Assembly: GCA_018268315.1 (NCBI GenBank)
Contig: JAFDWU010000001.1
Span: forward strand, 962,324 to 1,026,323
Origin: Armatimonadota bacterium
Lineage (GTDB): Bacteria > Armatimonadota > Fimbriimonadia > Fimbriimonadales > Fimbriimonadaceae
Length of the DNA stretch: 64,000 nucleotides
Direction of reading: 5' to 3'
The notes beneath the pieces were generated by a model, which was not told the DNA's origin, did not search any database, and saw only the letters and a program-made list of their open reading frames with translations. Shown piece by piece: positions 6,245 through 61,229 of the stretch. The stretch's first letter is position 1. The number at the start of each line of letters is the position of its first letter. A program made the translations under genes and the position numbers.

Positions 6245-8290
6245 TTGTCCGACACTATTAGCACCCTTTTAGACGAGAACCGAGTGTTCCCGCCCACCGA
6301 GGCGTTTAGCGCCGCGGCGAACATGAGCAACCCTGATATTTACGACCATGCGGCCAGCGACCCCGAGTCGTTCTGGGAAGGTTGGGCAGGCGCGCTGCAT
6401 TGGTACAAGAAGTGGGATTCCGTCCTGGAATGGAACCGCCCCTATGCCAAGTGGTTCCTTGGCGGCAAGCTGAACGCCTGCTACAACTGCGTCGATCGCC
6501 ACGCTCTCGGCCCTCGCGCAGTCAAGCGTGCAATTATTTTTGAAGGCGAGCCGGGCGACATTCGCGAGATTAGCTACATGGAGCTTCTCGACGAAGTTAG
6601 CAAGATTGCCAACGGTCTATTGAATCTTGGGATTCGCAAAGGGGATCGCGTGTGCATCTACATGCCGATGATTCCGGAGCTGGCGATGACGATGCTTGCC
6701 TGCGCGCGCATCGGCGCGGTTCATTCGGTGGTCTTCGGCGGGTTCAGCGCCGACTCGCTTCACGAGCGAATTAACGATGCCCAAGCGAAGCTGGTCGTCA
6801 CCGCCGACGGTGGTTGGCGGCGCGGGCACATCGTGCCTCTGAAGGCCACGGTGGACGAAGCGCTTGACATGGGCTGCCCCAGTGTCGAGCACGTTTTGAT
6901 GTATAGGCGAGTGGGACTGCCTGGCAATACGATCAACAAGATTCCGGTGCCTGATTACAACGTGGGCAAGTGGGAGCCGATCCGCGATATCGACTGGAAC
7001 GAGCACATTCTCCCGCTTTCCACGGATTGCCCGTGTGAGGAGATGGACAGCGAGGACATGATGTTCATCCTGTATACCAGCGGCTCAACCGGCAAGCCGA
7101 AGGGCATTGTGCACACGACCGGCGGCTACATGACGGGCGTGCTTGCCACCACTCGGTGGGTGTTCGATCTGAAGGAAGAGGACGTCTTCTTCTGCACCGC
7201 CGACTGCGGCTGGATCACCGGACACAGCTACGTGGTTTATGGGCCGATGGCAAACGGCGCGACCGTCGTAATGTACGAAGGCGCGCTTGACATGCCGCAG
7301 AAGGATCGCCTGTGGCGCATTATCGACCGCCACCGAGCGACCATCCTTTACACTGCGCCAACTGCAATACGAACCTTCATGAAGTGGGGCGCGGAGTGGC
7401 CGAAGAAATGCCGTCTGGATTCCCTGCGACTGCTCGGCTCGGTGGGCGAGCCCATTAATCCCGAAGCGTGGATTTGGTATCACGAGCACATCGGCAAGGA
7501 GGTCTGCCCGATTGTAGACACTTGGTGGCAGACGGAAACCGGCGCGATCATGATTACCCCGCTGCCGGGCATTACGAAGACGAAGCCCGGCTCCGCTACC
7601 CGGCCGTTCCCTGGCATTTCGGCGACGATTTTGGACGAGCAAGGGCGCGACCTGATGCCGCAGCACTTGATGGACGTGAAGGAAGCCAAGTGGCTTCACA
7701 GCGGCGGTAAGCGGCCCTCGATTGGCGGCTACCTAGCCATCACGCGGCCCTGGCCCTCGATGACGCGCGGAATCTACGGCGACCCTGAGCGGTTTGTGAA
7801 CACCTACTGGACGAGGTTCAAGGATGCCTACTTCCCCGGCGATGGCGCGAAGGCGGATGAGGATGGCTACTTCTGGCTGCTGGGCCGAGTTGACGACGTG
7901 ATGCTGGTCTCGGGGCACAACATCAGCACGATGGAAGTGGAGTCGGCGCTGGTGGACCACCCGGCGGTTGCCGAGGCGGCGGTCATCGGCAAGAAGCACG
8001 AGGTGAAGGGCCAGGCGATTTCGGCCTTCGTCATTATTCGGGCTCAGTTCAAGCAGCATGACGGGCTGATTGAAGAGCTCAAGGCGCATGTGGCAAAGAA
8101 GATCGGGGCGCTGGCGCGGCCGGATGATGTGATCATTACTGCGGAGTTGCCGAAGACGCGTAGCGGCAAGATCATGCGGCGGTTGCTTCGGGATGTGGCA
8201 GAGGGTCGTGCGCTTGGGGATACCACGACGCTGGCGGACCCCGCCGTTGTCAGCGCGCTTCGGGATAAGTACGAGTCGATGGAAGGGTAG
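6245..8290 (+). CDS. acsA: Acetyl-CoA synthetase (AMP-forming)
   Basis: Cytoplasmic enzyme making acetyl-CoA from acetate, ATP and CoA through acetyl-AMP. The 681-aa product has the N-terminal ACS segment (VFPPTEAF, WKKWDSVLEWN-like), the P-loop YTSGSTGKPKGIVH, the adenylate motif WWQTETGAIMITPLPG, the hinge GRVDDVMLVSGHNIS and the C-terminal acetylatable lysine motif KTRSGKIMRRLLR. That last motif suggests control by lysine acetylation, as in the family. The start is TTG at 6245, preceded by GAGAGGAAA; the next ATG would remove conserved N-terminal residues. Nothing essential appears to be missing. Confidence 0.96.
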   Translation: MSDTISTLLDENRVFPPTEAFSAAANMSNPDIYDHAASDPESFWEGWAGALHWYKKWDSVLEWNRPYAKWFLGGKLNACYNCVDRHALGPRAVKRAIIFEGEPGDIREISYMELLDEVSKIANGLLNLGIRKGDRVCIYMPMIPELAMTMLACARIGAVHSVVFGGFSADSLHERINDAQAKLVVTADGGWRRGHIVPLKATVDEALDMGCPSVEHVLMYRRVGLPGNTINKIPVPDYNVGKWEPIRDIDWNEHILPLSTDCPCEEMDSEDMMFILYTSGSTGKPKGIVHTTGGYMTGVLATTRWVFDLKEEDVFFCTADCGWITGHSYVVYGPMANGATVVMYEGALDMPQKDRLWRIIDRHRATILYTAPTAIRTFMKWGAEWPKKCRLDSLRLLGSVGEPINPEAWIWYHEHIGKEVCPIVDTWWQTETGAIMITPLPGITKTKPGSATRPFPGISATILDEQGRDLMPQHLMDVKEAKWLHSGGKRPSIGGYLAITRPWPSMTRGIYGDPERFVNTYWTRFKDAYFPGDGAKADEDGYFWLLGRVDDVMLVSGHNISTMEVESALVDHPAVAEAAVIGKKHEVKGQAISAFVIIRAQFKQHDGLIEELKAHVAKKIGALARPDDVIITAELPKTRSGKIMRRLLRDVAEGRALGDTTTLADPAVVSALRDKYESMEG

Positions 8291-8372
8291 GCCGAGGCTT
8301 CCTGCCTTGGAGTGCAGGCTCTCACTCTTGCGTATCCTAACGTTGGTCTCTAATTTCCACGAAGCATTGGCT

Positions 8373-8637
8373 GCCTTTCGCTTCGGACGCCGCCAATACC
8401 CGCCCACCCTCGGCCTCGGCTCCGCCGCGTCCTCCCTGTCGGCGTCCGTTTGGAGAGGGAATCGGCACTGAAGCTGGGTGTGAATGCCCATTTAGGCCGT
8501 ACTCGGGTCTAGCTTCTAATGGGAAACTCCCGACCTCTGAAAGCCACAAGTCGTCCCTATGGGCCGACGCCGTGGGAGGAAGCCGCGAAGCGGCTGCCGA
8601 GGGTGGGTGGGAGACAGCGGCGGCCCAAAAGCAAAGC
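8373..8637. repeat. Imperfect inverted repeat pair (66-bp arms) in a 427-bp gene-free stretch
   Basis: Between acsA and the oxidoreductase gene (8291-8717) I see no convincing gene. The segment 8373-8438 and the reverse complement of 8572-8637 align over 66 bp without gaps at roughly 70% identity, including the identical core CCACCCTCGG. The 133 bp between them are unremarkable. The arrangement resembles two oppositely oriented copies of a short dispersed repeat (REP- or MITE-like), or one imperfect long hairpin. No transposase or target-site duplication was identified. Confidence 0.65.
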
Positions 8638-8717
8638 TATTTCATCCGGCCCTCGAAGGCCCCCAAAGAACTCAACGCCCCTTCGACCAACACTGCGAGC
8701 AGAGGTATTCTGAACCG

Positions 8718-9785
8718 GTGCGCGCTGCCGACGAACTTAAGCTGATCCATGGGCCAGCTATCAAGAACCGCATCTTTCTTGCCCCGCTCACGAACTGCCA
8801 AAGCCACGAAGACGGCACCATTTCCGACGACGAATACCGCTTCCTAGTAATGCGCGCCGAGGGCGGATTCGGCATGACGATGACGTGCGCCAGTCACGTC
8901 CAGGCGGTCGGGCAAGGGTTCCCGGGCCAGCTCGGCGTCTTTTCAGATAAGCATCTGCCGGGCCTGACTCACCTGGCGAAAGGGATCAAAGCATTTGGAA
9001 GCAATGCCAGTGTTCAGCTTCACCACGCCGGGCGAATCTCTCCCAAGGAACTCGTTGGCACGCCCGTCGCGCCTTCGGATGATGCGGAATCTGGCGCGAG
9101 AGGCATGAGCGAAGCTGAGGTCGAGCAGCTCATCGAAGACTTTATCGCGGCGGCGGTTCGCTGCGAGAAGGCGGGATTCGATGGCATCGAGATTCACGGC
9201 GCCCACGGCTACATCCTCTGCCAGTTCCTGTCGCCCGAATACAACCGCCGCACGGATCGATTCGGCGGCAGCTTGGAGAATCGATATCGGCCCATCGACA
9301 TGATTTGCGAGGGCATCCGCCAGCGATGTTCGCCGGATTTCCAAGTTGGGTTGCGGATATCGGTGGAGCGGTACGGAGTGGAGTTGATGGAGGCGGTTGA
9401 AGTTGCGCGGTGGGTTCTTGCCGACCCGCGATTCGACTACCTGGATCTTTCTCTTTGGGATGTCGACAAGGAACCCAAAGAGGAGCAGTATAAGGGGCTG
9501 CTGCGATCCTATTTCACTTCTTTGCCCCGGAGTGGTGTTCGGCTTGGGGCCGCCGGCAAGATCGGCTCAGGGGCGGCCATTCAGTCGGTTTTGGACGATG
9601 GGTTTGACTTTGTGTCCATCGGGCGCGGGGCCATCCTTCACCACGATTTCGCGAAGCGTGTCCTTGCTGATCCCACCTTCGAACAACGTGACCTTCCGGT
9701 GACGGAAGCGTATCTCGCCAGCGAGGGCCTGGGTCCGCCGTTCATCAAGTATATGAGGGGCCGACCGGGGTTTGTGGAAGGCTAG
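8718..9785 (+). CDS. NADH:flavin oxidoreductase (old yellow enzyme family)
   Basis: FMN-dependent TIM-barrel ene-reductase of the OYE family. The N-terminus reads KNRIFLAPLTNCQSHEDG, the barrel carries HHAGR, and the substrate and FMN region carries GIEIHGAHGYILCQFLSP followed by NRRTDRFGGSLENRYR. The C-terminal phosphate-binding region is DFVSIGRGAILHHDFAKR. Length (355 aa) is normal. The open frame extends upstream to 8559 through repeat-like sequence with no family similarity, so I place the start at GTG 8718. Substrate is unknown. It is a single gene, convergent with yifB. Confidence 0.9.
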   Translation: MRAADELKLIHGPAIKNRIFLAPLTNCQSHEDGTISDDEYRFLVMRAEGGFGMTMTCASHVQAVGQGFPGQLGVFSDKHLPGLTHLAKGIKAFGSNASVQLHHAGRISPKELVGTPVAPSDDAESGARGMSEAEVEQLIEDFIAAAVRCEKAGFDGIEIHGAHGYILCQFLSPEYNRRTDRFGGSLENRYRPIDMICEGIRQRCSPDFQVGLRISVERYGVELMEAVEVARWVLADPRFDYLDLSLWDVDKEPKEEQYKGLLRSYFTSLPRSGVRLGAAGKIGSGAAIQSVLDDGFDFVSIGRGAILHHDFAKRVLADPTFEQRDLPVTEAYLASEGLGPPFIKYMRGRPGFVEG

Positions 9786-9797
9786 GCTCCTATGGGC

Positions 9798-11312
9798 TCA
9801 TTCCTCCAGCGCTTCGCGGTACTGAACCGCCTCCGCCAGATGCCCCTTCCGAACCTGCTCCTCGCAGGCCAAATCCGCAATCGTCCTTGCCACCTTCAAC
9901 AGCCGATCAAACGCCCGCGCGCTGATCCCCATCCGCGCGCTCACCAGCTTCATAAACTCCTTCGATTCCTCATCCATCGGAATCAATTCCCGAATCTGCT
10001 TCGGCGCCATCTTCGCGTTCACACGCCCGACCCCCAGCCGCGCCGCCTGCTTCTCTCGCGCCGCCATCACCCGGTCCCGAATCGCCGAGCTAGGCTCGCC
10101 GGGCTTGATGTCCAGCAGTTCCTGAGTCTTCAATCGCGGCACTTTGATGTGCAGGTCGATGCGATCCAGCAGCGGGCCGCTTAGCTTCGCCGCGTACTTG
10201 GAGCAAGTGGAGGGGTTGCTCACGCACTTCTGCTCCGGCAGGCCCTTAAAGCCGCACGGACAGGGGTTCATCGCCCCGATGAGGATGCACTCGGCGGGGA
10301 AGGTGATCGAGGCTTGCACCCGCGCGACCGTGACCACGCCATCTTCCAGCGGTTGGCGCAGAGCCTCCAGCACGTTGCGCTCGTACTCCGGCATCTCGTC
10401 CAGAAACAGCACACCGCAGTGGGCCAGGCTCACCTCGCCTGGCTTCGGATTCTTTCCACCCCCGACCAGCGCGGCATGGCTAGCCGAGTGGTGCGGCGAG
10501 CGGAATGGCCGCTCCCACATCAGTCCCTGCGAGCCTCCCCGCTGACCGCTGCTGCTATAGATGCGCGTCACCTGGATGCTTTCTTCCAGCGTGAGGGCGG
10601 GCAAAATGGTAGGCAGGCGGCGGGCCAGCATCGTCTTGCCGCTTCCCGGCGGTCCGCTCATCAGTAGGTTGTGGCCCCCGGCGGCGGCGATCTCCAGCGC
10701 GCGGATCGCGTGCTTCTGGCCCTTCACGTCGGCGTAATCCACCGAGTAATCCGGCAGCCGCCCCGATTCGCCCTCTTTGAACTCAAACGGCGAGATTTCG
10801 GTGCTGCCGTTCAGCAGCTCCACCATCTCCAGCAGCGTCTTCACGCCGTACACCTCAAGATCGGGGGCGACGCACGCCTCGGCGGCATTCTCCATCGGCA
10901 GAATCAGGCGCTTAAAGCCTTTCGCCATCGCCATCAGCGCCACGCTTACCGCGCCGTTGATCGGGCGCAGCGCGCCATCCAGGCCCAATTCGCCGATGAT
11001 GATCGCGCCTTCAAGTTCGGAAATCGGGATTTGGCCGGTCGCCGCGGCGATCGCGGCGGCGATGGGAAGATCAAGGAATGGCCCCTCTTTGCGGATATCG
11101 CCGGGGGCGAGGTTGCAAAGAATTCGGCGGTTGGGCCAATCCATACCGCTGTTCCGCATGGCGGTCCGCACCCGCTCGGTGCTTTCCTGCACCGCCTTAT
11201 CGGCAAGGCCGACAATCACGAAGTCGTTCTTGATGTATTGAAGGTCCACCTCGCAGACAATCGGCAGCGCCTCGATGCCGATGAGGGTGGCAGAATGTGC
11301 CTGCGAGATCAT
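9798..11312 (-). CDS. comM: YifB/ComM family Mg-chelatase-like AAA+ ATPase
   Basis: Hexameric AAA+ branch-migration helicase of the ComM/YifB family, which in naturally transformable bacteria extends heteroduplex during DNA uptake. The N-terminal Lon-protease-like S5 domain (FVIVGLADKAVQES, ERVRTAMRNSG) is followed by Walker A GPPGSGKTMLARRLP, Walker B GVLFLDEMPEY, and the conserved cysteine cluster around MNPCPCG. Full length at 504 aa. The gene is on the minus strand and divergent from the HD/Hsp90 gene. The window also contains a comEC homologue split in two, consistent with a competence role. Confidence 0.93.
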   Translation of the reverse strand: MISQAHSATLIGIEALPIVCEVDLQYIKNDFVIVGLADKAVQESTERVRTAMRNSGMDWPNRRILCNLAPGDIRKEGPFLDLPIAAAIAAATGQIPISELEGAIIIGELGLDGALRPINGAVSVALMAMAKGFKRLILPMENAAEACVAPDLEVYGVKTLLEMVELLNGSTEISPFEFKEGESGRLPDYSVDYADVKGQKHAIRALEIAAAGGHNLLMSGPPGSGKTMLARRLPTILPALTLEESIQVTRIYSSSGQRGGSQGLMWERPFRSPHHSASHAALVGGGKNPKPGEVSLAHCGVLFLDEMPEYERNVLEALRQPLEDGVVTVARVQASITFPAECILIGAMNPCPCGFKGLPEQKCVSNPSTCSKYAAKLSGPLLDRIDLHIKVPRLKTQELLDIKPGEPSSAIRDRVMAAREKQAARLGVGRVNAKMAPKQIRELIPMDEESKEFMKLVSARMGISARAFDRLLKVARTIADLACEEQVRKGHLAEAVQYREALEE

Positions 11313-11415: not shown

Positions 11416-14193
11416 GTGGCCTCCTATCACGGTTTTCAGATTGATTCCGTCTTGCGGAAGGAACTCAAGGACAAATTTGATGACTTTCGCTTTCGCGGAG
11501 AGGCGCTACAGCTGTGGACATTTCTGGCGGAATTCATAGCTAATGGGTCAACGGAGTTTTTCGCTGAGTGGACGGACCACGGTATCAGGCATATTGAAGC
11601 CGTCTGTGAGCATTGCAATAAACTAATTTCAGAGGATGGCATTAAGCGCCTTAGCGCAAAAGATGTCTTCTGTCTCTGCACTGCTATCCTCCTCCACGAC
11701 ATCGCTATGCGTCTTGATCATCGGCGAGTGACGCTCCTTCTTTCTGAAGACGGTCCTTTCCAAGAATACAAATCACTATGGGACATCTTCTGTAATGAGG
11801 CTTACCACTGGGATGCAGACAAGAGAGAAGAACTGTTCGGCGAGCTACGCGCTATACCGTCTAACCTATCCTTTAATACACTTCTTCCCGAAATGTACCC
11901 ACTTGTCGGTGAATTCCTGCGCAGACACCACGGAAGGATCGCGCAAGATATAGCGCTCTCCGGTTTTTCGCTGTTAACCAACGATGGCAAGCCGTTCCCG
12001 CGACTCACCGACTATCCGAAAGAGCTCAAGGAGCTGATAGATCTCTCAGCCAATATTGCCAAGAGCCATACCGAGCCTCTGCGAGAGGCGGCAGACGAGG
12101 CTGTTAGTGTCTTTAGCGATCAGCAAAACAGTTTTCCTGCGACGAAGATCATTGCTGGCGTCCACGTCGCCTACCTAATGGCATTGCTTAGAATAGCAGA
12201 CTACCTTGACTTTCGCAACTCCTCCTCTCAGCACTTCCTTGGCCAGTCGGTGCGCTTCAGCAGCCCGATTTCCCGAGTCGAACATCAAACCATGGAAGCC
12301 TTTCGGGAACTGCAGTGGGAGGCGCCGAAATTGGAAGTTATCTATTTACAATTCTCGACCGCTGCGCCAAATGTCTTCATAAATATGCAGCGCTACGCCA
12401 AGGGGCTTCAGCTAGAACTTGATGCTTCCTGGGCCGTACTCTCCGAGCACTATGCGTACAGTAGCTCCGATGTCATTGCTTCTAAAGGTCTTACAGCAAG
12501 GCGGATCCTCGCCCTAAATTTAGATAATCGCAAACTGAACGAAGCCTATCATGAAGAGCAGCTGAGCATTACCGTTTCGGACAGCTCGATAATCTTCCTT
12601 CTTGCAGGTCCACTTTACAACAATGACCCGCGCTTTTCGCTCCGAGAAATTTTGTCCAACGCCCACGACGCCTGCAGTCAAGCGAATGCTATCAGGGAAA
12701 CTGGCTCTCAGGAGCCGCCGCTTGCTATGCTGATCGACGAGGTAAGAGGCGTTATTGAGTTCCGGGACCGCGGAATTGGGATGTCATTTGAGGACGTTAA
12801 GAACTACTTTCTCAGAGTTGGCGGGAGAATACGAGATTCCCTAAAGTGGAAAGTCGATAACATCTCAATTCAGAACGGCATCAGCTACCCTTACTCCAGC
12901 AGGTTCGGGGTCGGCGTTGTCTCGCTCTTCCAAATTGGCCGGCAAGTGGAAATCTCGACGAAGGCGGCAGGACATCCAAGCGTATCACTGACGATTGAAC
13001 CGACCCGTAAGAATATCCTTGCGCGCAAAGAAGAGCGGGTTGTTGGCACAACGATACGCATTGCAGCATATAGCGACGTGCTGGCTCTCCTAAGCAGATT
13101 TGGACCAGGGATCAAGCTCTTATCAAAAGCTCTAAGCGAGTCCAGTCATATGGACGTTCTCTTGCAATTAGTGCAATATGCGAAATTTGTTCCAACGACC
13201 TATGGATTACAAATAGTGCACCGCAAAGCGCAAAGTTCGGAGGAAGTATATTTTCCGAGTATCGATGAAGTATTGACGTCATGTGGCTTGTCCTGGAGCC
13301 CGCTCCATGAAGGAGCCGCGGAAATAACCGTTGGTCAGATCGGGCCCTTGCATGGTGGTGTGGTTCTCGTCGTATACAATGGAATACCTATTGAAGTTGA
13401 GTCGCACGTTGGCCTCAAGCTCGGCCACAAATATATTGTCGTTGTACGTGACCCGTCTAATAAGTTAGACTTCAACTTACAGAAGACGGAATTTGCGAAT
13501 TTGCCGTCGGGATATATTGAGGATTGCCTGCGCGACCAGATTCAGCACTATATCAATGCAACCTTGCGCTCGTCAAATTGGCGCCAACTATTTACAGGAG
13601 GTCCAGCAAGGCTTTGGCACCGGGGCTCATCGCTGATAATCGCGGAGTTCCAGGAGTCGTCGAGGGCTAAAGCCAAGCGAGGGGTCATGCCGTTACTTTT
13701 CTGGAAAGATGGGCAACTCATGACGCTCACTAAGGATAACCTCGAGACGCAGCACCATAAGGTGGCGTTTGTCATTCTTTGTAACGAAGTTGACTTGCCG
13801 GTTCTCTGCGGCGGTCTGCCTGACCGCGGTATCTACATTGTCTGCGTTGCGGAGGGCCCAGGAGCTGGGGCGTATAAGTCCCCGAATGATGCCGTTGTCG
13901 TGTATCGGGATAGCCTGACCCGTAAGGACCTTCACGAAGGGCGTGTATCTTCCTCGGACATATCGACTTTGCTGAGGCACACTGGTCATAAGCTTGAGAT
14001 GGGCCCAAGTATTGAGCAACTAACAGAGCTATGTTTTAGTTGGGCGAAGCAGTATGAATGCGATTTGCTTGTCGTTGACATTGAGAAGTTGGGAGCTTGG
14101 GTGGACAAGAAGTGCGACTGGGGTGTAGGAAAGCCCATACGCCTCGCTGAAGACGCTATTTCGTGCTTTTCCAGCCACATCGGGCACGCATAA
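11416..14193 (+). CDS. HD-domain / Hsp90-type ATPase fusion protein
   Basis: A 925-aa protein with two recognisable modules. Residues 1-270 are a divergent HD phosphohydrolase-like domain: H55-x3-H59 (DHGIRHIEAV), the HD pair H94-D95 (ILLHDIAMRLDHR), a conserved HHG at 171-173 and D262 in LLRIADYLD. Residues about 380-560 are a GHKL ATPase closest to Hsp90/HtpG: N-box LREILSNAHDA (about 408-418), G1 box D451RGIGM, and R496FGVGVVSLF, which matches the HtpG motif QFGVGFYSAF. The last 360 residues are unrecognised and may include an Hsp90-like middle domain. Start is GTG 11416. The sequence looks AT-richer, with more ATA/TTA/AGA-type codons, than flanking genes. I recall HD-Hsp90 fusions being listed among predicted conflict systems; function here is inferred. 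Confidence 0.85.
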   Translation: MASYHGFQIDSVLRKELKDKFDDFRFRGEALQLWTFLAEFIANGSTEFFAEWTDHGIRHIEAVCEHCNKLISEDGIKRLSAKDVFCLCTAILLHDIAMRLDHRRVTLLLSEDGPFQEYKSLWDIFCNEAYHWDADKREELFGELRAIPSNLSFNTLLPEMYPLVGEFLRRHHGRIAQDIALSGFSLLTNDGKPFPRLTDYPKELKELIDLSANIAKSHTEPLREAADEAVSVFSDQQNSFPATKIIAGVHVAYLMALLRIADYLDFRNSSSQHFLGQSVRFSSPISRVEHQTMEAFRELQWEAPKLEVIYLQFSTAAPNVFINMQRYAKGLQLELDASWAVLSEHYAYSSSDVIASKGLTARRILALNLDNRKLNEAYHEEQLSITVSDSSIIFLLAGPLYNNDPRFSLREILSNAHDACSQANAIRETGSQEPPLAMLIDEVRGVIEFRDRGIGMSFEDVKNYFLRVGGRIRDSLKWKVDNISIQNGISYPYSSRFGVGVVSLFQIGRQVEISTKAAGHPSVSLTIEPTRKNILARKEERVVGTTIRIAAYSDVLALLSRFGPGIKLLSKALSESSHMDVLLQLVQYAKFVPTTYGLQIVHRKAQSSEEVYFPSIDEVLTSCGLSWSPLHEGAAEITVGQIGPLHGGVVLVVYNGIPIEVESHVGLKLGHKYIVVVRDPSNKLDFNLQKTEFANLPSGYIEDCLRDQIQHYINATLRSSNWRQLFTGGPARLWHRGSSLIIAEFQESSRAKAKRGVMPLLFWKDGQLMTLTKDNLETQHHKVAFVILCNEVDLPVLCGGLPDRGIYIVCVAEGPGAGAYKSPNDAVVVYRDSLTRKDLHEGRVSSSDISTLLRHTGHKLEMGPSIEQLTELCFSWAKQYECDLLVVDIEKLGAWVDKKCDWGVGKPIRLAEDAISCFSSHIGHA

Positions 14194-14362
14194 TTGCTCT
14201 GAATGGACACGAAGCAAATCGTCCGTTGTCCGTCGATACCCCAATCCTAGTGGGTGAAGAGGTAGTCGCCATCCGGTAACCCGGGAGTAGCGGCTGTGAC
14301 CTGAATATGCGTCGCATCGGCATTCTCCACTCACCTCTCAGTCTTGAGCGGGTCCTCGGAAT

Positions 14363-16069
14363 TCACTTTGACCCTTTGGATAATCTGTCAACTATCCGGC
14401 ATCCTCCCAATCTCGGCGAGCTCGGGACATTGCCATGACCAGATAGATAATCTGCCGCCACAAGCTGTACCGCCGCCCTCCGAAATGTGGAGTTCTTGAA
14501 TTGTGCACAGTTGAAGCTTGCACCAGATAGGTCAGAGTCATCAAAGTGCGTGTCGGAACCCACCGCGAAGTAGAACTGCGCACCTTTGAGTTGGCACCAA
14601 GGAAAAGAAGCACCTCCAAGGTCGGCATCAACAAAGATTGTATTAAGCCCAACCGCACACGGAAATACCGCTCCCTCCATATTTGCGCCCCTGAAATTCG
14701 TTCTCGTAAGCAGCGCTCCGTGCATCAGAGTGCCTCTCAGATCTGCGAACTCGAGGCTAACATCAGACAGCGCAATCCCAGGTAGGGCGCACCTAGAGAG
14801 TGGAAGACCGAAGCGATATCTTTGGTCCTTAGTCGCCTCAATATGTGGTTTAGACTCCCAACCCTGCATTGCCTCGGTCCGCGGTGGCTCATCCCGGCGT
14901 TTTGGGAGAACCGCATTGATGTTAATTTCTAAAAGGCATTCCGATATGGCGTCCCGCGTTGATTGAAGCCTTGCAGTTGCCAACCTCAACGATTCTTGCT
15001 GCTTCGCCCATTCATTTTGCCAATTTGCGGCAGGGCGAGCGGCAAACGCCATCCGACTTAACCTAACCTTTTCCTGAAACCGAGTGTCTGCGCTAGCTTC
15101 TGCAATGAAAACTTCGTTTAGCAGAATGGCGCGTTCTTTGATTATTCCTTCGTTGCCAGGAAGGGACCGGGCAACGACAAAATGGGATAGTTCCTCGGCA
15201 AGTTGCATCAATGCGTCGGGGCTCGTCCAGAGGGGGGCATATGTTCCAATACGAGGGGCTTTAGAGCTGAGGTATTTCGCTTCAAATTCCAATACTTCTG
15301 CACGCATTGAACCAAGCGTGGTTTTAGCCTCAGGCAAGTGTCCTGCGGACGGCAAAGCGTGCAAAGGGGTAGTTTCCACAGTCTGCACTTGGCCAACGGC
15401 CTGAGCCACGCCAATAAAGGTCGCAAGCTCGTCCTTCCACTTTCTGTATGCGGCCTGGTTTGCGGCGGCCAACGACATTATGACGCTGGCAGTCATAGGT
15501 ATTGCTAAAGCTCGCTCTGGGAGCCCGGAGAAATCTTTATAGGTTTGGTCGCTGAACTCGCCTCTGGCAAATCTGCATAGCCTTGCGCACGCCTGGGAAG
15601 CTGCATCTCTGATCGTCTGGTCATCGTCCCTTTGCAAGACAATGGTTATCAGGCCAACCACCTCTTCAAATTTGCCATAGTCTGCCTTTGAGGGCGGCGG
15701 CATAACGGTCGGGACTGAAGTTCCCACATCATGCCCTCCCGTAGTAGGCAACATTGCAACATTAACTAACTCGGTCAGAGCATTAATCCGCTCCAAATTC
15801 TTGTCAGCTTTTGTCAGGCTGTCCTTAGCCCCTTGAAGCTTCGCATTTAGCTGCTCCGCCTCCCATTTGCGCTCTTCCGCCAATCGCGCATTGTCTGCGA
15901 TCTTCACATTTGAGGCTGCGGAATCCCTGGCGATATCGGTCCCGACCCTCCATCCCAAGTAAGCAACCACAAGGGTTCCAAAGGACAAGAACGACGCAAC
16001 GTTTGTCCACACCCATTTAATAAGCTGGAGAAGTTTTGACCATACCCTAGCGCTAACCGCGTTAATCAT
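14363..16069 (-). CDS. Membrane-anchored coiled-coil protein with pentapeptide repeats
   Basis: A 568-aa protein with one N-terminal membrane helix (about residues 22-42, FLSFGTLVVAYLGWRVG), then a charged, probably coiled-coil stretch (about 50-105), a helical middle and a C-terminal block of pentapeptide repeats (FADLRG, TNFRGANMEGAVF, DADLGGASF, SDLSGASFNCAQF). Such blocks form a right-handed beta helix. A -10-like TATACT (16081-16086) lies only 11 bp upstream of the ATG. It is convergent with the HD/Hsp90 gene across 169 bp, shares its AT-richer style and completes a two-gene island between housekeeping genes. Function is unknown. Confidence 0.78.
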   Translation of the reverse strand: MINAVSARVWSKLLQLIKWVWTNVASFLSFGTLVVAYLGWRVGTDIARDSAASNVKIADNARLAEERKWEAEQLNAKLQGAKDSLTKADKNLERINALTELVNVAMLPTTGGHDVGTSVPTVMPPPSKADYGKFEEVVGLITIVLQRDDDQTIRDAASQACARLCRFARGEFSDQTYKDFSGLPERALAIPMTASVIMSLAAANQAAYRKWKDELATFIGVAQAVGQVQTVETTPLHALPSAGHLPEAKTTLGSMRAEVLEFEAKYLSSKAPRIGTYAPLWTSPDALMQLAEELSHFVVARSLPGNEGIIKERAILLNEVFIAEASADTRFQEKVRLSRMAFAARPAANWQNEWAKQQESLRLATARLQSTRDAISECLLEININAVLPKRRDEPPRTEAMQGWESKPHIEATKDQRYRFGLPLSRCALPGIALSDVSLEFADLRGTLMHGALLTRTNFRGANMEGAVFPCAVGLNTIFVDADLGGASFPWCQLKGAQFYFAVGSDTHFDDSDLSGASFNCAQFKNSTFRRAAVQLVAADYLSGHGNVPSSPRLGGCRIVDRLSKGSK

Positions 16070-16176
16070 CCGTATCTCTAAGTATACAGTACCTTATGAC
16101 AGCGCGCGCGGGAGCCTAACGCTAAGGCGATCCTTTTTAATTGCGTCGCCCGCTAGTAAAGGGCATAATTGCATCC

Positions 16177-16941
16177 ATGCTTCTAAAGGGAAAGAAGGGG
16201 TTGGTGCTGAGCGTTACCAACGAGAACAGCATCGGGTGGGCCATTGCCGACGCCGCTGCCAACCACGGCGCGGAAGTGGGCGTGGGCGGCCAGAACGACA
16301 AGATGCGGGGCCGCGTGGAGGCCCTGACCGAGGGACGCCCCAACATGAAGGCGTTCACCGTGGATTTCCAAATCGACGAGCAGATCGAGGCGCTCGTCGA
16401 AGAAGTGAAGAAGACTTACGGCGGCATCGACTTCTTCGTCCACTCCGCCGCGTTCGCGAACCGCGATGACCTTAGCGGCCGCTTCATCGACACCTCCCGC
16501 GATGGCTTCAAGCTCGCCCTCGATATCTCCGCCTATTCCCTTGTCCGCATGTGCAAGGCTCTGGAGCCGATCATGAACGAGGAAGGCTCCGTGATGGCGC
16601 TGAGCTATCTGGGCTCGGTGCGCGCGGTAAGCAATTACAACGTGATGGGCGTGGCAAAGGCCGCGCTGGAGGCCAGTGTTCGGTATCTGGCAGCCGATCT
16701 TGGCGTGAAGGGCATTCGGGTCAACACCCTTTCCCCCGGCCCGATTAATACGGTGGCCGCGCGCGGCGTGAAGGGGCTTACGGAGATGATCGATTACGTG
16801 CATGAGCGCTCTCCGCTGAAGCGCAGGTTTGGCCAAGAGGAAGTCGCGGGCTCCGCGATTTACCTGATGTCGGACCTCAGCAAGGGCGTAACCGGCCAAG
16901 TGATTTACATTGACAACGGATACAACATCGTCGGCATGTAA
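16177..16941 (+). CDS. fabI: Enoyl-ACP reductase FabI
   Basis: NADH-dependent reductase for the last step of each fatty acid elongation cycle. The 254-aa SDR protein has the FabI-type start KGLVLSVTNENSIGWAIA, QNDKMRGRVE, the active-site pattern YLGSVRAVSNYNVMGVAKAA (the FabI Y-x6-K motif) and SPGPINTVAARGVKG. FabI rather than generic SDR identity is supported by SIGWAIA and YNVMGVAKA. ATG 16177 gives the normal FabI length; an upstream TTG at 16141 would add 12 residues. The next gene, a formiminotransferase, overlaps or abuts its 3' end. Confidence 0.93.
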   Translation: MLLKGKKGLVLSVTNENSIGWAIADAAANHGAEVGVGGQNDKMRGRVEALTEGRPNMKAFTVDFQIDEQIEALVEEVKKTYGGIDFFVHSAAFANRDDLSGRFIDTSRDGFKLALDISAYSLVRMCKALEPIMNEEGSVMALSYLGSVRAVSNYNVMGVAKAALEASVRYLAADLGVKGIRVNTLSPGPINTVAARGVKGLTEMIDYVHERSPLKRRFGQEEVAGSAIYLMSDLSKGVTGQVIYIDNGYNIVGM

Positions 16942-33648: not shown

Positions 33649-33693
33649 CTGTTTGCCCAACGAGAAGTAAGCAAGTCTGCTATCTTATTGGTC

Positions 33694-34235
33694 GTGAGAG
33701 CGACTCTGCCAGCTATTATTCTTTCCTGCCTTCTGTGGGGTTGCCAATGCGGTACTGCCGGGGATGCGAATGGGGACGAACAGTTCCGACAATCTATTGG
33801 GCAGACGAAAGAGCTTCCGCATCCAACCGGGAGGCTGGTTTGGCAGTTCACTAAGGGTATCGAGAAGGGAGCGCCTGAGCTTAAGTTTCAACTGCCCGAC
33901 GGCGTTATGGAGGGGGTCACTGAGGGCGTTTACGAAACCGGCGGCAATTCAGCCATTCTCTCAATCAGATTCGAAGGCGCGGGCTTGAAGGGGTCAGAAA
34001 CGCTCAATAAGTTCATCGCCCAAAGCAACCCGCAACTGGTCAAATGCGGCAAGTTTTCCGGTGGGTATTTGGAGCGCGACATGCCATCCGGTGGCAGGCG
34101 CGAACGGCTGTACTACCTTGGCAATGCTGAATTCACCTACTCGATGATGATCTCTTGGAAAGATGAGGAGGGCAGAAGCTTGGAGAAGCGATGGTGGAGG
34201 CAGTTGCTTGGTCGATTTCGATCAAGAAACCCTGA
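33694..34235 (+). pseudogene. Lipoprotein gene with a probable single-base frameshift near its 3' end
   Basis: Starts at GTG 33694 (or TTG 33688) with a lipoprotein signal ending SCLLWGC. The reading frame runs to 34416, but its last 60 codons are Arg/Ser/Pro-rich, unlike the rest, and lie antisense to the next gene. Near 34186-34190 (GAGAAGCGATGG) one extra base after GAGAAG would switch to a frame coding EKAMVEAVAWSISIKKP and stop at 34235, just short of the convergent gene that ends at 34244. This is a much better C-terminus. Either the gene is freshly broken or one base is missing from the assembly. The intact protein would be about 180 aa, of unknown function. Confidence 0.6.
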
Positions 34236-34243
34236 AGGGGTGA

Positions 34244-34693
34244 CTACAACAGGTCGTACTTTCGCCTTTCCGGCGGGATTTCGACTGTTACGCCAGCCTC
34301 TTCCAGTAGCTGCAGAAAGCGCTTCTCATGCTCCAATCTCCCCAAGAACGCTTCCTTTCCATGCTTCGGCACGATGTAGAAGCTCTCGGTTTCTCCGTCA
34401 AGCGGCAGAAGGATAACCTTCTCGATGTTGGCGAACTGGAACACTTGCCTCTTTCGATGCTTGAAGCCGGTTTCGATCGCCAGCGAGGCTGAGCTCACTC
34501 GTATTCGCCAAGGTCAGTTGACGCCAACAAGCAAGAGCATAGAGCCACTAATGAAGACCAGCCTTAGGGGGATGCCAATTCCTTCGCCCGGCAGGGTCAT
34601 CATAACTGCCAGCGCAAGGATCATCACCGAGATGCAGCCGATGCCCAATCGACTGTAGCTGTCGCGGTAGAAAATGGCGTCGCGGGCTGGCAT
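34244..34693 (-). pseudogene. Third paralogue of a small membrane-protein family, interrupted by an in-frame TGA
   Basis: From ATG 34693 the frame encodes 59 residues with two hydrophobic segments (ISVMILALAVMMTLPG, LVFISGSMLLLVGVN), then a TGA at 34514-34516. The same frame continues for 90 codons without another stop and ends EIPPERRKYDLL at 34244. The downstream half aligns with the two upstream paralogues (FLGRLEHEKRFLQLLEE against VSLGRLAGERDFLHRLEG), so the stop splits one gene. A shorter ORF could restart at GTG 34498. Pseudogene, sequencing error or readthrough are all possible. Confidence 0.65.
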
Positions 34694-40957: not shown

Positions 40958-41482
40958 TTAGCTAGGTTTGATTACCTCAATTCCGCGAACGAAAGCGAGC
41001 GCGTCTCTTGACCTCGTTTTGCTTGAACCTTTGAGGTCTAGGAACCGGAAGACGACAAGCATTTGCTCGTTCGGCGCATTCCTCTGAAAAGGGAGAATCA
41101 GATAGGTGCCCAAGCCCTCCTCATCATGAAGAAGCAGCGTTCCGATCCTCGTTCGATACACCGAGCCCGAGTAAAACTTGCGGCGAGCGCGACTCACACT
41201 ATGGTTGGTGAGGATTTGGAGCATGAATGACTTTGTCTTCGGTTGCCACTTGCTATCGCCGATTCTGCTGAAGGTCATTATTCTGTCCGGATACCACTGC
41301 CCCAAGCCCTGAGCTGTCTCAGCACTGTAACCGGGGGATCTGGTGGGATCCTCTACAAGAACCCAGCCCTTGGGGAGCGTGATTTTGAGCCTTGCTGACT
41401 GCAGCGCCCCTAAAGGTGGTGTCGTGATCGAATGCCACTGGGCGGGCGGATTCAGCTGGATCGGAATGGAAATTAGGATCAT
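40958..41482 (-). CDS. Hypothetical protein (174 aa)
   Basis: From ATG 41482 the product starts with a short hydrophobic stretch (MILISIPIQLNPPAQWHSI), too weak to be a definite signal. It continues as a soluble strand-rich domain (ARLKITLPKGWVLVEDP, GTYLILPFQRNAPNEQMLVVFRFLDLKG). The ATG overlaps the stop of the upstream membrane-protein gene (ATGA), so the two form a coupled pair. No family is recognised; the pattern resembles lipoprotein-type beta domains that accompany small membrane partners. Confidence 0.6.
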   Translation of the reverse strand: MILISIPIQLNPPAQWHSITTPPLGALQSARLKITLPKGWVLVEDPTRSPGYSAETAQGLGQWYPDRIMTFSRIGDSKWQPKTKSFMLQILTNHSVSRARRKFYSGSVYRTRIGTLLLHDEEGLGTYLILPFQRNAPNEQMLVVFRFLDLKGSSKTRSRDALAFVRGIEVIKPS

Positions 41483-41841
41483 GGCGCCACCTCCCAGACT
41501 ACTACCGCCGTTACCAAGCTCAGCAGCACGAGTGCGATCCCGCCGAGCGGCAGAACCGACCCACTCATGGGTCCAATCAGTTCGACTAATGGTTTGATAG
41601 GCGCATATGGAATTACAGAGATCAGGATGGCTGTCAACACCCCATCCAAAGCGATGATCGAGCCAAGAAACCAACGATGGATGGCTCGCCGACTCTTTAA
41701 TGCGATGAAGACATGAACAGGAAGCAGGACGGCGGTCATGAAGAACGCTGTTTTAGTCCCGCACGACTCCCTACAATCCATGGTAATTGTCGCGAACCCT
41801 TGGATTGCAATTGAAACGATCACTAATAACGCTCGGTACAT
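41479..41841 (-). CDS. Small membrane protein (120 aa, four helices)
   Basis: Four hydrophobic segments (LLVIVSIAIQGFATITM, TAFFMTAVLLPVHVFIAL, FLGSIIALDGVLTAILISVI, GGIALVLLSLVTAVVVW) with short loops. No conserved motif is recognised. It is coupled to the 174-aa protein gene by an ATGA overlap and begins 55 bp beyond the end of the ABC fusion gene on the same strand. Confidence 0.65.
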   Translation of the reverse strand: MYRALLVIVSIAIQGFATITMDCRESCGTKTAFFMTAVLLPVHVFIALKSRRAIHRWFLGSIIALDGVLTAILISVIPYAPIKPLVELIGPMSGSVLPLGGIALVLLSLVTAVVVWEVAP

Positions 41842-60272: not shown

Positions 60273-61229
60273 ATGAGTCGAGATAATCAAGCGCCCAATC
60301 AGCAGTCATTCGATCAAGCAGCTTTAGAATTGGATGGGCTAAAGCCAGGATTCGCAAGAGTCAGAGCTATCAGTAACTTTGGCTATGATGCTAAGTCAAT
60401 TCCCCCCGGAGCTATCATCGATGTGGACCTGGACACGCTAAATCTCGAGTCATTCGTGGAGGCCGGGTTATTCGAAGTCATTGCGTCCCGCCCTCGTGAA
60501 ATTGAAAAGAAGAGGGATAGGTCAACTATCGAGTTTCCGTACGGTGATCTAGATGACGCGATTGCTGTGGCAAAAGCGGTCGCGGAGCATGGCGGCGGAT
60601 GCAGTCCAGACCAACTCGCTCAAATGCTCGGCCATGAAAATGTACGGAGCGGAGCTTTTGTCCAGAAGATAGGAACTGCGCGCATCTTTAGAGTGATCGT
60701 AAGGAATGGAACGACGTTGGAGCTTACTGAGCTTGGGTGGGCCATCTTACAGCCAGACTTTTCTCCTCAGGCTAAGGTAGATGCATTCCTAAGCGTTCCA
60801 CTTTACCGCCGCATCTTTGACAACTACAGGGGAAATCTCCTTCCTTCGGACGCCGCGTTAGAGGGGTTCTTAGTCAGCGTTGGCGTGGTTGCCACCCAGG
60901 CTGGTCGGGTACGACAGGCCTTTCAGCGATCAGCGCAACAGGCAGGATTCTTTGCCGGTGCAAACAGATCTAGGTTAATCATCCCAATCGGATGCACCGA
61001 AGATGGATCTTCCCAATATTTCGAAGCCCGGCGGCCTGTCGCGCAAGACGGTCCCTCCAGGCAGGCGAGTGGATTGATTGACATGCCAAACCTTCCACCA
61101 GCCATTGCTGGAATTCTAACGACATTGCCTTTAGCTGAGGGCGAAACTTGGACAAACACCGAGTTGGAAGAGTGGCTGGCGATGTTTGGTGGGGTCCTGA
61201 GAGTGGCGTTTAAGGCTAAGCTAAAGTAG
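60273..61229 (+). CDS. Hypothetical protein (318 aa), winged-helix-like middle
   Basis: No family that I can name. Residues about 90-170 (DLDDAIAVAKAVAEHGGGCSPD, ELTELGWAILQPD) have the pattern of a winged-helix domain, with helices, a turn and a strand pair. The rest is soluble. TATAAT (60260-60265) lies 7 bp upstream of the ATG with no Shine-Dalgarno, so the transcript is expected to be leaderless. Base composition is AT-richer than the housekeeping genes around it. It follows the structured-RNA region and may belong to an accessory module with it. Confidence 0.6.
   Translation: MSRDNQAPNQQSFDQAALELDGLKPGFARVRAISNFGYDAKSIPPGAIIDVDLDTLNLESFVEAGLFEVIASRPREIEKKRDRSTIEFPYGDLDDAIAVAKAVAEHGGGCSPDQLAQMLGHENVRSGAFVQKIGTARIFRVIVRNGTTLELTELGWAILQPDFSPQAKVDAFLSVPLYRRIFDNYRGNLLPSDAALEGFLVSVGVVATQAGRVRQAFQRSAQQAGFFAGANRSRLIIPIGCTEDGSSQYFEARRPVAQDGPSRQASGLIDMPNLPPAIAGILTTLPLAEGETWTNTELEEWLAMFGGVLRVAFKAKLK

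Follow-up and report, generated by a model that had tools for sequence, protein, structure and literature searches.

A divergent HD-CE/Hsp90-type ATPase fusion protein, probably of phage defence, in an Armatimonadota genome

The stretch of Armatimonadota DNA analysed here (64,000 nucleotides, referred to as the window) carries two convergent genes 169 nt apart, one encoding a fusion of an HD-CE domain to an Hsp90-type ATPase domain and the other a pentapeptide-repeat protein. The features of the locus are as follows.

9798-11312, minus strand: yifB, flanking the gene pair
11416..14193, plus strand: HD-CE/Hsp90-type ATPase fusion gene, 925 aa, GTG start
11560..12423, plus strand: HD-CE domain, aa 49-336 (PF24391, E=2.3e-35)
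12568..13083, plus strand: Hsp90-type GHKL ATPase domain, aa about 385-556 (E411, N415, D418, D451, G455, F497-G498-x-G500)
13084..14190, plus strand: C-terminal region, candidate sensor, aa 557-925, without Pfam domain or known homologue
14363..16069, minus strand: pentapeptide-repeat protein gene, 568 aa, convergent with the fusion gene
14465..14800, minus strand: C-terminal pentapeptide repeats, aa 424-535 (PF00805, 2e-14; PF13599)
15956..16012, minus strand: borderline N-terminal transmembrane segment, aa 20-38 (best 19-residue Kyte-Doolittle mean 1.49)
16141-16941, plus strand: fabI, flanking the gene pair

The first-pass annotation described an HD-type phosphohydrolase with intact H...HD...H...D positions fused to an Hsp90-class ATPase, and both parts of that description hold. 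In profile searches the fusion protein scores 123 bits against PF24391 (HD-CE), for which the cut-off is 27, and its HD ligands are H55-x3-H59, H94-D95, H172, H218 and D262, together with R169. Mononuclear dNTPases such as SAMHD1 have the ligand set H, HD, D. The ligand set of the fusion protein suggests two metals, unlike these enzymes, and the conserved extra histidines suggest a metal centre different from that of the HD dNTPases (SpdGTPase, Clover). The predicted structure of the fusion, built from nine sequences, has a mean pLDDT of 43 and is usable for the HD part alone, where many blocks reach 65-80. Fold comparison of this low-confidence HD model returned cyclic-nucleotide phosphodiesterases (Z about 9-10, 220-235 residues), with binuclear phosphodiesterases listed, and the fusion model also gave Hsp90 N-domains (Z about 9-10), values that are weak for helical folds and may reflect just a common helix arrangement. 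The resemblance of the HD part to cyclic-nucleotide phosphodiesterases is therefore only suggestive.

These ligands bear on whether the HD domain is a nuclease, similar to Cas3-HD, and not a nucleotide hydrolase, a reading that would leave a defence role unchanged and make phage or host DNA or RNA the target. With its conserved H-x3-H, HD, H, H and D positions the domain has more ligands than the H, HD, D of mononuclear dNTPases, and binuclear phosphodiesterases are among the fold matches, both of which would suit a nuclease; against this, no link to Cas3 emerged at the sequence level, and the HD-CE family is reportedly predicted by Nicastro et al. (2023) to target nucleotides. We regard a nuclease as somewhat unlikely.

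All three motifs named for the ATPase are present: the N-box (R410-E411-N415-D418), DxGIGM (D451-x-G453-x-G455) and FGVGVV (F497-G498-x-G500). The best phmmer matches of aa 380-528 among PDB sequences are the N-domains of HtpG, TRAP1 and Hsp90 (4e-7 to 1e-6), and a profile of the HD-CE/Hsp90 family made from 16 sequences matches Hsp90 N-domains at 1e-29. No Hsp90 middle or C-terminal domain was detected, the family profile matching the N-domain alone even on full-length Hsp90 chains, and the full-length HtpG model gives the fusion 43.3 bits against a cut-off of 371, covering model positions 2-172 of 614. Since the match is confined to the N-domain, the fusion has an Hsp90-type ATPase module and is not a chaperone with client-binding domains. 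The earlier idea that the Hsp90 domain senses a client loses its footing here, only the N-terminal ATPase domain being detectable. The C-terminal region of about 370 aa had no match in 291 genomes of the phylum or in any other HD-CE/Hsp90 protein, and carries no Pfam domain. PADLOC 2.0.0 models gave the fusion no strong near-full-length match, the best being 0.00096 over a short GHKL stretch.

HD-CE occurs above the family cut-off in 41 of the 291 genomes, scattered through the phylum. The HD-CE plus GHKL architecture was found in four genomes among the loci read from this search, twice in the window's own genome, and further HD-CE/Hsp90 proteins from plasmids, phage contigs and genomes are 890-1090 aa long and encoded by single genes. 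An alignment of 16 homologues, whose pairwise identity to the window protein falls as low as 16-20% and stands at 16-19% in the alignment itself, has invariant HD residues (H55, H59, H94, D95, R169, H172, H218, D262) and invariant GHKL residues (R410, E411, N415, D418, D451, G455, F497, G498, G500); a loss of these residues in most homologues, named in the first-pass annotation as a point that would count against it, was not seen. The window protein is at best about 24% identical to any family member found, and lies on a very long branch (4.46) of the phylogeny with an unsure placement. When the 16 proteins were compared all against all, detectable pairs numbered 192/240 for the HD domain, 226/240 for the GHKL domain and 32/240 for the C-terminal region, the last mostly within clades. 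The simplest reading would be a constant effector-switch core joined to a fast-changing C-terminal sensor; the variability of the C-terminus may also be faster drift without a sensor role.

The same genome (G000) has a second HD-CE/Hsp90 gene on contig 6 (L034:7911-10589; 892 aa, about 21% identical), whose convergent neighbour is a Band_7 (SPFH) gene of membrane type (L034:7108-7836). This copy falls in a different clade, near a protein from a Zymomonas plasmid, and from its clade and low identity it follows that the two copies have separate histories of acquisition or divergence. In G282 (L035:8019-11527), Aliarcobacter (L078:8878-12277) and Lysinibacillus (L080:8920-11426) the HD-CE/Hsp90 gene is broken or split, which makes these copies pseudogenes unless the sequences contain errors.

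HD-CE domains were also encountered in other combinations. One is a TIR-HD-CE-IF-2B-like protein (L019:904-3192), an unusual three-domain architecture, and another a fusion to CARF (Cas_APE2256; L039:847-3105) adjoined by large ORFs resembling Cas7-type genes of type III CRISPR systems. In L006 (G269) HD-CE is followed by apparent HEAT repeats, another sensor-like combination, and an Azospirillum brasilense plasmid encodes a caspase/iHD-CE/Hsp90-like/wHTH fusion of 1542 aa that is unannotated in its record (L041:6033-10658). The fusions of HD-CE to TIR and CARF and of iHD-CE to caspase point to the same conflict theme.

Both genes of the pair had been described as AT-richer than their neighbours, and measurement bears this out. 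GC content is 0.506 in the fusion gene and 0.522 in the pentapeptide gene compared to 0.581 in the 46 other window ORFs, GC3 is 0.559 and 0.530 compared to 0.694 (sd 0.070), and codon usage deviates from that of the window ORFs by 2.1 sd and 2.7 sd, respectively. A few other window ORFs are equally extreme, which makes composition alone modest evidence of transfer. Three further AT-rich ORFs with atypical codons and without Pfam match lie at 60273-61229, 33688-34416 and 40958-41674. The pair does sit between yifB and fabI as first described, but these are not neighbours in relatives: yifB was found in 36/36 relatives searched, and fabI was adjacent to it in 0/29 with flanks checked. The pair therefore did not interrupt a conserved yifB-fabI pair, and there is no clean empty site from which an insertion date could be obtained. 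The 64-kb window contains no tRNA genes, no integrase and no long or convincing flanking repeats were seen at the gene pair, and scanning the region for promoters and terminators gave nothing above chance level.

At the protein level the fusion matched nothing in 60 relatives belonging to its family and order; a scan of 84,980 genomes gave no close relatives, and phage records gave no match. Vertical conservation among relatives, which would have weakened the original reading of the gene, is thus not seen. Absence from the 60 relatives, together with the AT-rich, atypical codons, supports horizontal acquisition of the fusion gene. PADLOC found no strong defence neighbour beside the window copy within the window, where the best score among 45 ordinary genes was 2.5e-26, for a widely matching family.

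Relatives of the fusion are found at immune loci. On two P2-like phage contigs, L075 (at 6735-9491) and L082, the HD-CE/Hsp90 gene is placed exactly in the gap that separates replication gene gpA from portal gene gpQ. Two independent papers identify this site as a defence hotspot of P2-like phages (PMC9122126, PMC9519451), and the L075 locus is identical to a Buttiauxella noackiae prophage locus (L086). Two further phage contigs (L090, L091) carry the gene among phage genes. The hotspot of L082 also contains, beside the HD-CE/Hsp90 gene, a gene without Pfam match (L082:4990-5742) that is possibly another defence gene. On plasmids, the neighbours are GajA-GajB (Gabija) in Pantoea, where the HD-CE/Hsp90 gene lies at L079:8899-11649, and a directly adjoining TIR-NLR gene in Zymomonas (L077); nearby lie recombinases and AbiEii in Hymenobacter (L040), AbiD in E. 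eligens (L083), and SduA (Shedu) with an R-M specificity subunit in Aliarcobacter (L078). The best PADLOC scores at these plasmid neighbours are 1e-90 to 1e-108, compared to the best background score in the window, and signify an association with defence genes and not a measured enrichment, as the neighbours scanned were partly hand-picked, some of them with a defence annotation already in place. Lone HD-CE/Hsp90 genes among housekeeping genes were also found (L084, L087-L089). The PADLOC 2023 models do not cover the P2-hotspot copies, and the literature searched yielded no experiments on them. The claim of a conflict system made in the first-pass annotation stands at the level of the family, through the P2 hotspot in two phages and the defence neighbours on plasmids; for the window copy, which has no strong defence neighbour, the role is a putative one.

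The neighbouring protein was originally called a membrane-anchored pentapeptide-repeat protein. Its repeats are well supported by the PF00805 match, but anchoring is borderline on the Kyte-Doolittle mean. A low-confidence model predicts a long helix after aa 20-38, and the predicted structure as a whole (pLDDT 41) is uninterpretable. No other recognised domain was found beyond the repeats, searches of 291 genomes and of 72,556 plasmids gave no homologue of aa 1-420, and viral contigs and plasmids held no relatives beyond the repeats.

The two genes had been taken for one system with a membrane partner. In such a system the membrane-associated pentapeptide protein might work together with the HD-Hsp90 protein, tether it or inhibit it. 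They do share an AT-rich, atypical-codon island, both are absent from the related genomes searched, the pentapeptide protein is the only one of its kind detected in its genome, and the genome's second HD-CE/Hsp90 gene also converges with a membrane-type (Band_7) gene. However, the genes are convergent and form no operon, a pentapeptide gene was present at 0/19 other HD-CE/Hsp90 loci, aa 1-420 have no homologue in the genomes and plasmids searched, and HD-CE/Hsp90 relatives are lone genes, for example in the P2 hotspots. A single system is on this evidence very unlikely and that part of the earlier description is set aside; the pentapeptide gene is probably not a partner of the fusion and, most likely, is an accessory gene in its own right that shares the insertion site. 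Any partnership would have to be a local novelty. That an acquired membrane-associated pentapeptide partner and a new sensor C-terminus could together make a two-protein immune system, with a membrane-tethered or restrained NLR-like Hsp90-type switch, is a long shot that we rate as highly improbable.

Taken by itself, the fusion gene probably encodes a phage-defence protein of an already predicted kind. Our preferred reading, to which we give a probability of roughly 0.65, is that of an anti-phage (or anti-mobile-element) protein that acts on its own, spreads horizontally and has an ATP-switched HD effector. The mechanism that we infer for the window copy would begin with recognition of an infection cue by the clade-specific C-terminal region. 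The cue would alter how the Hsp90-type ATPase domain binds ATP, hydrolyses it or dimerises, and this domain would act as a switch in the manner of the STAND/NACHT domains in NLR-like proteins and turn on the N-terminal HD phosphohydrolase. The target of the HD domain might then be nucleotides, a nucleotide signal or nucleic acid, whose degradation would stop phage replication, probably at the host cell's cost. The long branch, the best identity of 24% and the lack of a strong defence neighbour stretch the step from the family to the window copy.

A regulator outside defence, namely a phosphodiesterase that is gated by ATP and cleaves a second messenger used in housekeeping or stress, would fit the likeness of the HD model to cyclic-nucleotide phosphodiesterases and the homologues that stand alone among housekeeping genes, but sits poorly with the sporadic distribution, carriage by phages and plasmids, the P2 hotspot and the clade-variable C-termini; we think it distinctly unlikely. 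The long branch of the window protein and the broken family members (L035, L078, L080) could also suggest a decaying, non-functional import, yet the reading frame is full-length and all catalytic residues are kept despite about 20% overall identity, and decay is scarcely credible.

If the defence proposal is true, Hsp90-type ATPase domains would be bacterial immune switches that replace STAND/NACHT domains and drive an HD effector. What is new here is the placement in the P2 hotspot, the invariance of the residues, the split between core and variable region, and the absence of a pentapeptide gene from the other loci. The P2-hotspot copies are compact single genes and directly testable in laboratory E. 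coli.

Nicastro, Burroughs, Iyer and Aravind reportedly named HD-CE (NAR 2023), and are said to have proposed that modules related to Hsp90 and Hsp70 serve HD-CE-type effectors as STAND-like switches in a predicted immune class. The same study reportedly included the dNTPase-NTase system now called Clover. With HD-CE and an Hsp90-type ATPase in one protein, the window fusion has the effector and switch type that are said to define this class, along with its predicted immune role; it differs in being at most about 24% identical to the members found and in having its own C-terminal region with no other known domain added. As the class was reportedly already predicted, the window gene is a new, very divergent member of it. 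The Azospirillum brasilense protein likewise joins an HD-CE-superfamily domain to an Hsp90-type region, but its HD is of the Pfam iHD-CE type and a caspase is present, whereas the window protein has intact HD ligands and no caspase. HtpG/Hsp90 chaperones share with the fusion the N-terminal ATPase domain with all motifs, but not the middle or C-terminal domain, neither of which was detected in the fusion. A GHKL-regulated effector has been shown experimentally to be anti-phage in VcSduA (GHKL-Shedu) of Vibrio cholerae (PMC12137116), which, like the fusion, combines a GHKL ATPase and a catalytic effector in one protein; its effector is a PD-(D/E)xK nuclease, its GHKL domain is N-terminal and it has no HD domain. 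Clover was later validated, with HD-motif-dependent nucleotide depletion in defence (PMC12265719). Clover CloA and SpdGTPase (HD dNTPases; PMC12265719) resemble the fusion in having an HD effector whose activity phage defence needs, but their dNTPase-type HD is regulated by a nucleotide signal and they have no Hsp90 domain.
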